A model generated the notes under the pieces. That model was given only the letters and a program-made list of their open reading frames with translations, searched no databases and was not told the origin of the DNA. This document shows, piece after piece, positions 51,983-55,785 of a DNA stretch of 64,000 bases. Source of the DNA: Solwaraspora sp. WMMA2056 (GTDB taxonomy: Bacteria > Actinomycetota > Actinomycetes > Mycobacteriales > Micromonosporaceae); the NCBI RefSeq assembly GCF_030345095.1, contig NZ_CP128360.1:1488001-1552000 (forward strand), in the 5' to 3' direction. The first letter of the stretch is position 1. The number at the start of each line of letters is the position of its first letter. The position numbers and the translations under genes were made by a program.

Positions 51983-52999
51983 TCAGAGCAGGGACAGGTG
52001 CACGTGGTTGGTGTGGTCGCTGCTCGGGTCGCCGCCGGCGCCGCTGTAGGAGCTCCAGCCTGTCGTCGGTGACCAGAACTGGCGGTACCAGATCACGTAG
52101 AGGATGCCGAGTTTGTCGGCGTTGCGGACCAGGAACGCGGTCAGGTTGTTGCCGTAGAGCCGGGCGTCGCCGGTGGCGTCGCCGCCGAAGCCGCTGGACT
52201 GCATGGAGAAGTCACAGGCCCGGCCCTTCGGGTGCTCGAACGGGCCACCGGGTCGGAAGCAGGAGACGAAGCGGGTGAAGCCGGCCTTCTTGGCCTCGTT
52301 GAGCGCGTGCATGGTGCGGGGGGTGATGCAGCCGCTCGTGGTGGGGTCGTCCAGGCTGCACGACTCGGACGGCCAGGAACCGTTCGCGTTGCGGGGTGCC
52401 TGCGCGGCGACCGGCGAGGTGGCCGAGACGAACCCGTTGGTGGCGACCGCGCCGACCAGCTGCAGGGCCTTCTCCGACTCCTTCTTCTGGCGGGACATCA
52501 CCTCGAGCTGCTGTTCCTCGCGGGTCACCTCGGCCTCGATCGCCGCGACGGCCCGGGCGGCCTGTTCACGGGCCTCGTTGAGCTCGCGGACCCGCTTGTT
52601 GTCGTGCATGGCGATCATGTCCAGGCCTTCGGCCCGGTCCAGCAGGTCGTCCGGGCTGGCGCTGTTGAGCAGCACCATCACCGGGGTGATCCGGCCGAGA
52701 CGGTACGAATTGGAGGCGACCTCGCCGATCTGCGGGGTGAGTGCCTCCAGTCGTTCCTCCACCTTCTCCAGTTCGAGGTTGAGCTGAAGTTGCCGCTTGC
52801 GGGACTCCTCGACGGCGGCCTTTGCTTCGACGAAGCCTCGGTTGGTCGACTCGATGACGTCGCTGAGCAGTGGCTGCGCGCCCTCGTCCGAGGGGTCCTG
52901 GGCGGCGGCCGGGGTGGCGACGACGAGGCCGGCGAGCAAGGTGGTCACGGCGGCCAGTGCGGCGGTGAACGGAACCCGCCGGTATAGGGGTGCGGTCAT
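51983..52999 (-). CDS. Secreted coiled-coil protein with ARB-07466-like C-terminal domain
   Basis: 338 aa. Signal peptide about 1-33 (LLAGLVVATPAAAQ). Residues about 45-190 form a long coiled coil with heptad-like Leu/Ala/Glu (ESRKRQLQLNLELEKVEERLEAL, EAREQAARAVAAIEAEVTREEQQLEVM), as in the N-terminus of NlpC/RipA-type wall hydrolases. The C-terminal part (about 205-338) has CITPRTMHALNEAKKAGF, PKGRACDFSM and DHTNHVHLSLL, which resembles a VanY/M15-like metal-site region. Acts outside the membrane, probably on or near peptidoglycan. Its leader is a c-di-AMP riboswitch, which supports a cell-wall role. ATG with AAAGGAACAGG. Confidence 0.88.
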   Translation of the reverse strand: MTAPLYRRVPFTAALAAVTTLLAGLVVATPAAAQDPSDEGAQPLLSDVIESTNRGFVEAKAAVEESRKRQLQLNLELEKVEERLEALTPQIGEVASNSYRLGRITPVMVLLNSASPDDLLDRAEGLDMIAMHDNKRVRELNEAREQAARAVAAIEAEVTREEQQLEVMSRQKKESEKALQLVGAVATNGFVSATSPVAAQAPRNANGSWPSESCSLDDPTTSGCITPRTMHALNEAKKAGFTRFVSCFRPGGPFEHPKGRACDFSMQSSGFGGDATGDARLYGNNLTAFLVRNADKLGILYVIWYRQFWSPTTGWSSYSGAGGDPSSDHTNHVHLSLL

Positions 53000-53011
53000 C
53001 CTGTTCCTTTC

Positions 53012-53140
53012 CTTGGCCGCCGACCGAGTTAGCTGACGGGTTCGGGACGGAACGATCCCTACCGCGACGTCGCGGATTCACCCCGGTGGAAACGTGGTTC
53101 CCCGGCTCACCCCGAAGGACGATTAGGCGGCGGTCACCGC
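53012..53140 (-). ncRNA. Cyclic-di-AMP riboswitch (ydaO/yuaA type)
   Basis: The minus-strand leader of the coiled-coil protein gene carries the actinobacterial ydaO consensus in order: CTTCGGGGTGAGCCGGGGAA, then CACCGGGGTGAATCCGCG, TAGGGATCG, CCGTCCCGAACCCGTCAGC and TAACTCGGTCGGC, ending about 17 nt before AAAGGAAC and the start codon. These are the pseudosymmetric junction segments that bind two c-di-AMP molecules. In this class, ligand turns expression off. Boundaries are approximate. Confidence 0.9.
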
Positions 53141-53348
53141 CGGCACCGGTGGGTGCCGCCTGGCGGAGACCGCCGGCAAGCTTACCGGATCGGTGACCGG
53201 CGACAACACCTCGACGACCGTCGTTGACCAGGGAGAATTCCGTTACTGGACAACGACTTTAGGTAATGTCCACTTTCTGCGTCGGCGGGCCTACGGCATG
53301 TCGCGACCGGCTGGGTCGATAGTGCCGTGGTCGGGGGATGGAACTGCC

Positions 53349-53354
53349 TAAAAT
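53349..53354 (+). promoter_or_regulatory. -10-like hexamer upstream of ktrA-like gene
   Basis: TAAAAT in an unusually AT-rich stretch (53231-53388), 35 nt before ATG 53389. A tggaca/tgtcca inverted pair is at 53247-53272. The stretch 53141-53348 has no other recognised gene or RNA. Confidence 0.35.
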
Positions 53355-53388
53355 GCCATAGAAGCCGAAAGTAGGAAATAACCTCCGG

Positions 53389-54114
53389 ATGGATTCCCTG
53401 ATGACAGACGACCCGTTCCTGACGGCTGCCGATCCGTCCCCGGTCGGTGCGGCCGGCGACGGCGTCACTGACGACGACAGCGTGGCCGTCATCGGCCTGG
53501 GTCGATTCGGTGGGCAGGTGGCGCTGTCGCTGTGCCGGCTCGGTCACCGGGTGCTCGGCATCGACGGCGATCCCCGCCGGGTGCAGCGCTGGTCCGACCG
53601 GCTGCCCCGGACGGTGGAGGCGGATCCCACCGACGAAGAGTCGCTGCGGCACCTCGGGGTCGCCGACTACCCGTGCGCGGTCGTCGGCATCGGCGCCGAC
53701 ATCGAGGCCAGCATCCTGACCGTCGTGTCGCTGACCGAGATCGGCGTGCCGGAGATCTGGGCGAAGGCGATCACCGCCAAGCACGGCCGGATCCTCGCCT
53801 CGGTCGGTGCCCACCACGTGATCTTTCCGGAGGCCACCATGGGGGACCGGGTCGCGCACCTGCTGGCCAGCCGGATGCTCGACTTCATCGAGTTCGACGA
53901 CGGCTTCGCGATCGCCAAGGTGTGCGCCCCGGCGGACAGCGCGGGTCAGACCCTGGCGCAGGCCCGGCTGCGGCAGCGGTACGGCATCACCGTCGTCGGC
54001 ATCAAGGAGCGTGACCAGCATCTGCGGTACGCCGTACCGGACTCGGTGATCCCGCCGGACGCGCTGCTGATCGTCGCCGGGCCGACCGCGGACGTGCAGC
54101 GGTTCGGCGGTTGA
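53389..54114 (+). CDS. TrkA/KtrA-type potassium uptake RCK protein
   Basis: 241 aa. An extended N-terminus (1-30) precedes the RCK_N Rossmann domain: VAVIGLGRFGGQVALSL (G-x-G-x-x-G), GIDGDPRRVQRW (acidic end of strand 2), then EADPTDEESLRHLG and a helical section; RCK_C (about 165-241, AGQTLAQARLRQRYGITVVGIKERD). A cytoplasmic regulatory ring for a Ktr/Trk K+ channel; no pore subunit gene lies next to it. It is divergent from a c-di-AMP-riboswitch gene. KtrA RCK_C domains in other bacteria bind c-di-AMP. ATG 53389 or 53401. Confidence 0.9.
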   Translation: MDSLMTDDPFLTAADPSPVGAAGDGVTDDDSVAVIGLGRFGGQVALSLCRLGHRVLGIDGDPRRVQRWSDRLPRTVEADPTDEESLRHLGVADYPCAVVGIGADIEASILTVVSLTEIGVPEIWAKAITAKHGRILASVGAHHVIFPEATMGDRVAHLLASRMLDFIEFDDGFAIAKVCAPADSAGQTLAQARLRQRYGITVVGIKERDQHLRYAVPDSVIPPDALLIVAGPTADVQRFGG

Positions 54115-54202
54115 CCCAGGGATCCTGGGCGTAACCGTCTCGTCACGCCTTCATTTCGTGAGCTGATCAGCCTCTGGACTTTCGCAAACTCGTGACTCAG
54201 GC

Positions 54203-54208
54203 TACAGT
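54203..54208 (+). promoter_or_regulatory. -10 hexamer of small leaderless unit
   Basis: TACAGT lies 6 nt before ATG 54215, with no ribosome site. The -35 is weak (TTTCGC at 17 nt). Confidence 0.5.
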
Positions 54209-54214
54209 CCTCCC

Positions 54215-54454
54215 ATGGGAGCGCTTCCATTGATGGATGTGCACCAGAACACTGTACCGACGCGCGGCGTGGCGCTGTTCGCAGCGCTTCGCCGACCGCT
54301 CAGCCCTTGGGCTGGCGGCGGGCCAGCCCGGACTCCGCCGCCAGCCACGCACCGCCTGTCGAGAGGAGGTGGAACCAGAGCCACTCGCGTGGCCCGGCTC
54401 CCGCGCGTCACGCACGACCTGGACGCCAAACCGCTCGTGCGTGTCAGTAACTGA
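54215..54454 (+). CDS. Small ORF (79 aa) or structured RNA, in a CebR-box unit
   Basis: 79 aa, MGALPLMDVHQNTVPTRG at the start and THDLDAKPLVRVSN at the end. The start has a -10 at 6 nt, and a strong terminator follows the stop by 2 nt, so a transcript of about 275 nt is defined. Third-position GC is ordinary in the first half and high in the last 25 codons. Inside, GAGAGGAGG at 54361-54369 has no start codon at proper distance, and a 9-bp hairpin CACGCACGA/TCGTGCGTG lies at 54409-54443. No family is recognised. It may encode a short protein, or the sequence may function as RNA. Confidence 0.5.
   Translation: MGALPLMDVHQNTVPTRGVALFAALRRPLSPWAGGGPARTPPPATHRLSRGGGTRATRVARLPRVTHDLDAKPLVRVSN
54216..54229 (+). 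promoter_or_regulatory. CebR/CelR-like LacI-family operator
   Basis: TGGGAGCGCTTCCA matches the 14-bp CebR/CelR box consensus TGGGAGCGCTCCCA at 13 of 14 positions, and the palindrome extends by one more pair (A54215/T54230). It covers the expected transcription start, so a bound repressor would block initiation. CebR and CelR control cellulose use in Streptomyces and Thermobifida; release is by cello-oligosaccharides. The nearest downstream target encodes a CBM2 protein. Confidence 0.7.
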
Positions 54455-54456
54455 TG

Positions 54457-54488
54457 GTGGGGACGGGGGTTGCCCTCCCCGTCCCCAC
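54457..54488 (+). terminator. Strong intrinsic terminator of small unit
   Basis: A 12-bp perfect stem GTGGGGACGGGG/CCCCGTCCCCAC with 8-nt loop starts 2 nt after the stop of the 79-aa frame. Confidence 0.75.
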
Positions 54489-54837
54489 GCTAGTCCTCGA
54501 TTGTTACGACGTGGAATCGCCGACAAGTCAGGACCGCGACGCCGCTGCGTCCAACTGTCCTGCGCAGCCTGCCGATGCATCGGCAGGCTTCGTTGTGTAT
54601 GGAGCTGTCGTGGCTGCCTGGCCCGGTCGCGGTCGGGATCGGCGGCAGCGCCGTGCGGGCATCGACAATCGTCCGGGGCCGCCGGTCGACGGTGTCCCAG
54701 CTCACAGTGGTCCGGCCGGGGCCCGCACGGCGGAACTGTCACCGGACGGCGGATGGCGCCCCGCGACATGCATCGTTGACCATGGATGTCCTGGCGCTGG
54801 TTCGTCCGCCGGTGCCCGCACCGAAAGCGAGTCACCC
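54489..54837 (+). other. Gene-free leader of the Fn3-CBM2 gene, with 24-nt palindrome
   Basis: About 350 nt. A perfect 24-nt palindrome AGCCTGCCGATG/CATCGGCAGGCT lies at 54566-54589 and could be a protein site or hairpin. The Fn3-CBM2 frame stays open through here but codon use is poor and no conserved sequence precedes the signal peptide. No promoter was found with confidence. Confidence 0.5.
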
Positions 54838-55785
54838 GTGACCACTGTGCCACCGCCGCCGTCGGATCGCGCAGCCCACCGCGACGGCAGCCGTCGCCCC
54901 CGGGCCGCCCGACGGCTGGGCGTCCTGCTCGCCGCCGTACTGCTCGGTCCCGCCCTGCCGGCGGCGAGCGCAAGCGCCGCGACCGGCGCCGACACCGAGG
55001 CGCCCACCACCCCCGGTGTCCCGACCGTCGCCGCCATCAGCACGGACCAGGTCACCCTCACCTGGACCGCCGCCACCGACGACGTCGCGGTCACCGGCTA
55101 CGAGATCGCCCAGATGCAGGCCGACTACATCATCATCAAGACCAGCCCGGTCAACGAGATCACCATCGTCGGCCTGCAGCCGTCACGGACGTACCAGTTC
55201 TGGGTGGCCGCGCGCGACGCCGCCGGCAACCGGTCGCCGACGAGCCCCGCCCTGCGACTGACCATGCCGCCCGGCGACGACCAGGCACCCACCGCCCCCA
55301 CCGGCCTGACCGCCACCCAGACCGGCACCGACGCGGTCACCCTGCGCTGGCAGCCGTCCACCGACAACGTCTACGTCGCCTGGTACGAGGTGCTGCGGGT
55401 GCACCCCGACGGCTCGACCACCCGGGTGGCCACTGCTCCGCAGCACCCGCCGACCGGTCCGACCGCCCGGGTCGGCGGCCTGCAGCCCGGCACCAGCTAC
55501 ACCTTCGCGGTACGGGCCCACGACGACGCCGGCAACAGCTCGCCGCTGTCCGCGCCGCTGACCGTGACCACCACCCCGGTCGCCCCGACCTGCGAGGTCG
55601 CCCACCAGGTGATCAACCACTGGCCGGGTGCCTTCCAGGCGCAGTTGGACGTCCGCAACCTCGCAGCGGAGCCGATCGACGGCTGGACGCTGAGCTGGAC
55701 CACGCCCGACGACCAGCAGATCGCGTACCTGTGGGGTGCCGAGCCGGTCGACCTCACCCCACCCGACGTCACGGTCCGCAACTAG
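54838..55785 (+). CDS. Secreted Fn3-Fn3-CBM2 protein, truncated by in-frame TAG
   Basis: 315 aa as it stands. GTG start; Arg-rich N-region and hydrophobic core (LGVLLAAVLLGPALPAASASA, end about 45). Two fibronectin-III domains: about 55-143 (PTTPGVPTVAAISTDQVTLTW) and about 148-245 (PTAPTGLTATQTGTDAVTLRW). Then a CBM2 beginning with Cys at about 254 (CEVAHQVINHWPGAFQAQL). The TAG at 55783-55785 (codon 316) stops it in the middle of CBM2, though the same frame continues with intact CBM2 sequence to 55911. Likely a binding or accessory protein for cellulose; no catalytic domain is present. The operator of the upstream small unit suggests cellulose regulation. Confidence 0.85.
   Translation: MTTVPPPPSDRAAHRDGSRRPRAARRLGVLLAAVLLGPALPAASASAATGADTEAPTTPGVPTVAAISTDQVTLTWTAATDDVAVTGYEIAQMQADYIIIKTSPVNEITIVGLQPSRTYQFWVAARDAAGNRSPTSPALRLTMPPGDDQAPTAPTGLTATQTGTDAVTLRWQPSTDNVYVAWYEVLRVHPDGSTTRVATAPQHPPTGPTARVGGLQPGTSYTFAVRAHDDAGNSSPLSAPLTVTTTPVAPTCEVAHQVINHWPGAFQAQLDVRNLAAEPIDGWTLSWTTPDDQQIAYLWGAEPVDLTPPDVTVRN

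Follow-up and report, generated by a model that had tools for sequence, protein, structure and literature searches.

In enterobacteria, the small RNAs Spot 42, SgrS and ChiX add post-transcriptional control to sugar regulons, and CcsR1 (RF02791) is a C-rich small RNA of the Rhodobacter type that carries CCUCCUCCC motifs. Among actinobacteria, scr5239 of Streptomyces coelicolor is described in passages of two reports as a conserved stem-loop sRNA with a DasR site upstream, by which the agarase DagA is repressed (PMC4365011, PMC4398421). The reported control of actinobacterial cellulose breakdown is, in the parts of the literature drawn on here, transcriptional and exerted by CebR, whose targets in Streptomyces include cellulase genes (PMC5332605, PMC4898821) and whose consensus operator in Streptomyces has been given (PMC5332605).

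The element described here lies at positions 54203-54488 of the window, by which the whole 64,000-nucleotide stretch of Solwaraspora sp. WMMA2056 DNA is meant, and is most likely a copy of a conserved small RNA, a small-protein gene being unlikely. From comparison of sequences it was read as probably a CebR-controlled noncoding regulatory RNA of about 275 nt, which would be made together with cellulases and would act by base pairing. Such an RNA would work most like scr5239, a likeness by description with no kinship claimed: in the passages cited, that RNA is likewise an actinobacterial sRNA with the site of a sugar-responsive regulator upstream and a secreted polysaccharide-degrading enzyme as target, but it belongs to another lineage, answers to DasR, is 159 nt long and uses the core motif GCUGCGG for metE. 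The same 14-bp palindrome as here is placed at cellulase genes, cebE and cebR of Streptomyces in the corresponding passages (PMC5332605, PMC4898821); the regulon members named there are protein genes, whereas here an RNA has the box. Spot 42, SgrS and ChiX differ in regulator and host, and no Rfam family was reached at threshold. Briefly, a search of 53000-55500 against Rfam 15 left the element without a match at E values up to 1, and the best match in five relatives was CcsR1 with 23.1 bits against a gathering score of 65.3 (E 0.13; L061, 5050-5131, over the 3' part of the RNA), a match that was absent from the window. As far as titles and abstracts of the open-access literature searched tell, no such RNA is described in Micromonosporaceae; the element is of the kind of bacterial regulatory sRNAs and as a family appears new. 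With a conserved RNA in the CebR regulon beside GH48, this control would gain a post-transcriptional layer, and a new RNA family would serve the annotation of Micromonosporaceae.

All parts of the element are on the + strand. The predicted promoter (54181-54208) consists of a weak -35 sequence TTCGCA (54181-54186), a 16-bp spacer and the -10 sequence TACAGT (54203-54208), which had already been picked out in an earlier, sequence-only reading together with a 14-bp LacI-type box. This box, the CebR-type operator TGGGAGCGCTTCCA (54216-54229), is palindromic and differs by one letter from the CebR-regulon operator TGGGAGCGCTCCCA. It is followed by a variable 5' part of low conservation (54230-54309), hairpin 1 (54310-54346), the Shine-Dalgarno-like AGGAGGTG motif (54364-54371), the hairpin GCCACTCGCGTGGC (54380-54393), the C-rich GGCTCCCGCGCG motif as a candidate pairing segment (54396-54407), the hairpin CACGCACGA..TCGTGCGTG (54409-54443) and a terminator-like 12-bp hairpin (54457-54488) with the loop TTGCCCT (54470-54476). 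The unused AGGAGG and the interior hairpin of the sequence-only reading were both recovered, the former within AGGAGGTG with no start codon at the usual distance. The strong terminator claimed there was borne out as a conserved hairpin but not as a complete signal: simple promoter and terminator scans of 53500-55500 returned 0 sites, because the -35 sequence is weak and no T run stands 3' of the hairpin. The loop TTGCCCT was present in 106 of 110 loci examined (L135-L145 included, window-type copies excluded). The AGGAGGTG motif may pair with GGCTCCC. A pairing of AGGAGG with the CCTCC near 54209, also put forward earlier, was rejected, CCTCC not being conserved within the genus (CCTGC in 4 of 7 copies of the locus).

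Homologues were found at the DNA level in 26 of 61 genomes searched (the source genome included), and a second copy in the source genome showed 90% identity over 179 bases and an exact box too. A motif scan of named genomes returned 91 stretches; the matches listed, for 80 of these, belonged to Micromonospora, Verrucosispora, Plantactinospora, Asanoa, Phytohabitans, Catenuloplanes and one Micromonosporaceae isolate. When 300 Micromonosporaceae genomes were searched with a covariance model built on the core, 139 of them gave a match, spread over 17 of 44 genera. The same model matched 3 of 197 genomes in a class-wide draw, all three Micromonosporaceae. A further search beyond the family matched 6 of 296 genomes, of which three were Micromonosporaceae and the other three had no box; among the genomes searched, the predicted RNA family was found only in Micromonosporaceae. 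The bipartite motif RGGAGGTG..GGCTCCCGCGCG matched 146 of the 300 family genomes, a few of these matches probably being fortuitous; newly gained were 11 genomes of genus g17 and 2 of genus g56, in which both the AGGAGGTG and the GGCTCCCGCGCG motif are kept, the hairpin between them differs (GCCACTCGCGTGGC being swapped for another hairpin in g17) and boxes stand upstream. Sixteen of 17 chance-type matches had no upstream box and one had a loose box; the four RNA loci in this check set carried an exact box at -128 to -151. When 16 genomes were searched with the model under relaxed settings, the one firm match had been found before (G204, E 1.4e-6); G313 followed at 0.008 and the rest at 0.06 or more. 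A search for homologues and covariation in Micromonosporaceae had been proposed with the sequence-only reading, which was to fall if neither protein nor RNA was conserved in close genomes; conservation at the RNA level was found across genera.

The RNA folds with -149.8 kcal/mol against a shuffle mean of -127.3 (z -4.22; 0 of 200 shuffles as good), and the conserved core alone gave a z of -3.95. Covariation was assessed in an alignment of 95 distinct cores, obtained from 105 loci by removal of identical cores and one short locus (to 96) and of L093, with L135-L145 absent. Its 55 pairs were formed in 94.8% of cells. Two-sided changes were seen at 15 pairs, in 81 cells against a shuffled mean of 29.6, and none of 500 shuffles reached any of five measures in this control, which ignores the relatedness of the sequences, while sliding the partners lowered the measures. 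Most of the two-sided changes fell in hairpin 1 (5 pairs), the CACGCACGA hairpin (6 pairs) and the terminator-like hairpin (3 pairs), and the hairpin GCCACTCGCGTGGC was paired in 98.9% of cells. A GGAG-CTCC pairing is possible in 95 of 95 cores and proves nothing, since it never varies. Likewise, a long-range pairing of the box, GGGAGC with GCTCCC, which RNAalifold predicted with each pair present in 22-24 of the 24 sequences, was set aside as uninformative because it hardly varies, the box presumably being held by DNA binding.

Upstream of the core, the exact box was found in 89 and TACAGT in 87 of the 91 named loci, a set that takes in L135-L145 and leaves out window-type copies; among the exceptions, L093 had neither and the stretch of L105 was incomplete. 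At the place of the -35 sequence, TTTCACA stood in 88 of 101 loci, and a second, inverted box was present in 72 of the 91. TACAGT started 20-22 bp ahead of the box in 96 of 100 loci with measured spacing (again with L135-L145 and without the window's copy type), which would place the box just inside the transcript. The earlier statement that the box lies over the start site suits the window's own promoter type. By this comparison the element has its own promoter and a terminator without a T run, no conserved frame and a conserved, covarying structure, as in an sRNA.

The assignment of the box as a CebR-like operator is supported by this conservation and by the sharing of the box with cellulase genes and a ceb-like operon. 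The exact pattern occurs at 11 places in the source genome, two of which are the RNA copies. Five of the others border genes for GH9, GH5, GH6-CBM2, a second GH9 and CelD_N-CBM4_9 proteins; the remaining four of these nine have no known cellulase neighbour (L037, L040 and, with neighbours checked against Pfam, L031 beside a helicase-type gene and L035 beside an RpiR-type gene). With up to one mismatch allowed, the box had 23 and 26 matches and a reversed-pattern control 15 and 13. Near-exact boxes stand ahead of a GH48-CBM2 gene and, as a pair, upstream of an operon for a solute-binding protein, permease-like proteins (recognised by eye), a GH1 enzyme and a LacI-type regulator, a layout like that of the ceb genes of Streptomyces (cebEFG-bglC-cebR-like). 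This regulator scored below every NCBIfam cut-off with no CebR model matched, and LacI-type matches in the source genome number 22; it is a candidate CebR, which would bind the box of the RNA.

Upstream sequence of 2 kb or more was available for 67 named loci, and in 65 of these the GH48 gene lies on the opposite strand; the two exceptions (L063, L084) are both Asanoa, for which a relative showed GH48 about 4 kb off with its own box. GH48 was detected in 255 of the 300 family genomes and, by comparison of lists by eye, in 136 of the 139 RNA-bearing ones (without: G083, G173 and G248). In g17 the RNA is kept apart from GH48, at a distance of 1.8 Mb in G099. Two matches were found in each of 7 genomes of the window's genus. 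In the source genome, copy b lies between GH48 and GH1, and the window copy (a) is flanked by a TrkA-domain gene and an FN3-CBM2 gene. In a tree of 31 cores, whose bootstrap was not settled and in which 16 of 27 inner branches were open, a and b fell on separate sides of one branch (100/99).

In the proposed mechanism, CebR would sit on the box and block transcription when cello-oligosaccharides are missing; digestion of cellulose would release CebR, so that the RNA would be made alongside the cellulases. Two C-rich segments of the RNA, GGCUCCC and UGCCCU of the terminator loop, would then pair with mRNA leaders, and this pairing would determine how strongly or when genes for the use of cellulose or sugars are expressed. 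The invariance of the C-rich segments (GGCTCCCGC in 95 of 95 cores) suggests pairing with G-rich leaders. The likeliest single target would be the GH48 leader, to which we give a real, if clearly minor, share of the probability. A slightly more doubtful proposal goes further and takes the RNA as the first RNA within a CebR-controlled cellulose regulon and as a riboregulator dedicated to the key exocellulase GH48, in which GGCUCC-GGAGCC and UGCCCU-AGGGCA would be the pairing sites, one repressor would release both genes from one divergent promoter region, and the second RNA copy in the window's genus would serve elsewhere. For 94 loci (L135-L145 in, window-type copies out), the GH48 leader contained GGAGCC in 88 and AGGGCA in 83, and the RNA contained both complements, GGCTCC and TGCCCT, in all 94; the GH1 leader had GGAGCC in 1 of 75 and AGGGCA in 0 of 75. 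Conserved k-mers complementary to the GH48 leader numbered three of length 6 and one of length 7, those to the GH1 leader none, and a parallel-complement control gave four 6-mers and three 7-mers, more than the real GH48-leader test. The duplex energy of RNA and GH48 leader was -117 kcal/mol, that of simple shuffles -110; it did not stand out, its positions were inconsistent, and it was uninformative.

The distribution of the sites was also compared with that of the RNA, partly by eye. In g17, where RNA and GH48 are apart, both site pairs persist in RNA and leader, and in G063 the RNA has no TGCCCT and the leader no AGGGCA while the other pair is kept. Where the RNA was undetected, leaders had neither GGAGCC nor AGGGCA in g30 (L185, L188), g27, g25, g61 and g12, and no box stood ahead of GH48 in the other g30 stretches examined; sites were present despite undetected RNA in g66 (GGGAGCC) and g18 (GGAGCC and AGGGCA). 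Among RNA-bearing genomes, the leader had no AGGGC in Asanoa (G024), G029 and G027 and no GGAGCC in G204 and G319. The co-occurrence of leader sites with the RNA favours GH48 pairing in a suggestive, not decisive, manner.

A cis-acting leader, in which the RNA and its hairpin would attenuate a downstream GH1 beta-glucosidase gene and the window copy would be a displaced one upstream of the FN3-CBM2 gene, is improbable. In 76 of 87 loci (L135-L145 counted) a GH1 motif does lie downstream in the same orientation, as the RNA also precedes GH1 in G022 of g17, and the GH1 next to copy b of the source genome has no box of its own. In 74 of the 76 loci, however, a further box stands before GH1, after the terminator-like hairpin, so the RNA looks like a separate unit; no GH1 was found within 1.6 kb downstream of the window copy and its six counterparts in the genus, a different gene follows the window-type copy in G029, and an unsystematic look for an alternative antiterminator pairing found none.

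Only a little less probable still is a function through binding of ribosomes or protein instead of mRNA pairing, for example as a decoy via the invariant AGGAGGTG. GGAGGT is identical in 95 of 95 cores with no start codon behind it, and AGGAGGTG persists in genera g17 and g56 despite the differing neighbour hairpin; the same stretch can, however, pair internally with CTCC in every core, a pairing that is invariant and hence neither proved nor excluded.

A cellulose-responsive small protein can practically be dismissed: the element is crossed by one open frame of 79 aa (54215-54454), whose ATG at 54215 overlaps the operator palindrome, but of 93 loci examined one has no such ATG and in the other 92 the frame that starts there spans anything between 7 and at least 200 codons (under 50 in 41 of them), G024 and G029 are without most of the RNA's variable 5' part, and with it the 5' part of the frame, and the distance from the core GTG to the terminator falls in all three frames (35/32/26 modulo 3; 95 cores, 2 without measurement), so that no frame is conserved and the reading as a protein-coding gene was rejected. 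The sequence-only reading had left the choice between small protein and sRNA, of which the RNA half is carried by the conservation, the covariation and the common box; its 79-aa frame exists but fails as a gene, and the last 25 codons, thought to look coding, turned out to be hairpin sequence. What looks like an orphan frame can, in a GC-rich genome, thus be an RNA gene, visible by comparison only.

Several further observations were made around the loci. The cores L093 (Micromonospora sp. CB01531) and L239 (G173, in which GH48 was not matched) had no box in the upstream stretch searched and are perhaps decaying copies. In the smaller genomes of genus g4 (5.1-5.6 Mb), the RNA was weak or changed (E 1.4e-6 in G204, 0.008 in G313, 1.3e-8 in G319), and GCGCG after GGCTCCC was lost in G204 and G319. 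The GH48 5' leader (L052 from about 4789, + strand, and relatives) contains after the box a conserved structure-like element GCCGAGGGCATCCGG..CCGGTACGGC, for which Rfam gave no match at threshold, and CC(G)AGGGC of this leader was present in 101 of 110 loci examined. Upstream of GH48 in G028 (L190), AGGAGGTG and a strong hairpin, with TGCCCC as its loop, come after a divergent box; the covariance model found no RNA there, and the stretch is perhaps a far-diverged relative.

Within the window, the FN3-FN3-CBM2 gene 3' of the RNA (54841-55785, +) ends within CBM2 (profile positions 1-51 of 101), and its best NCBIfam match, below cut-off, was the C-terminal part of the exoglucanase CbhB; this gene may be what is left of a truncated cellulase. 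At 53002-53139 (-), a c-di-AMP riboswitch was recognised (RF00379; 82.1 bits, E 5.8e-19), which stands before a gene (51983-52999, -) that had no Pfam match and for which NCBIfam offered weak matches at most, to peptidoglycan hydrolases (RipC among them).
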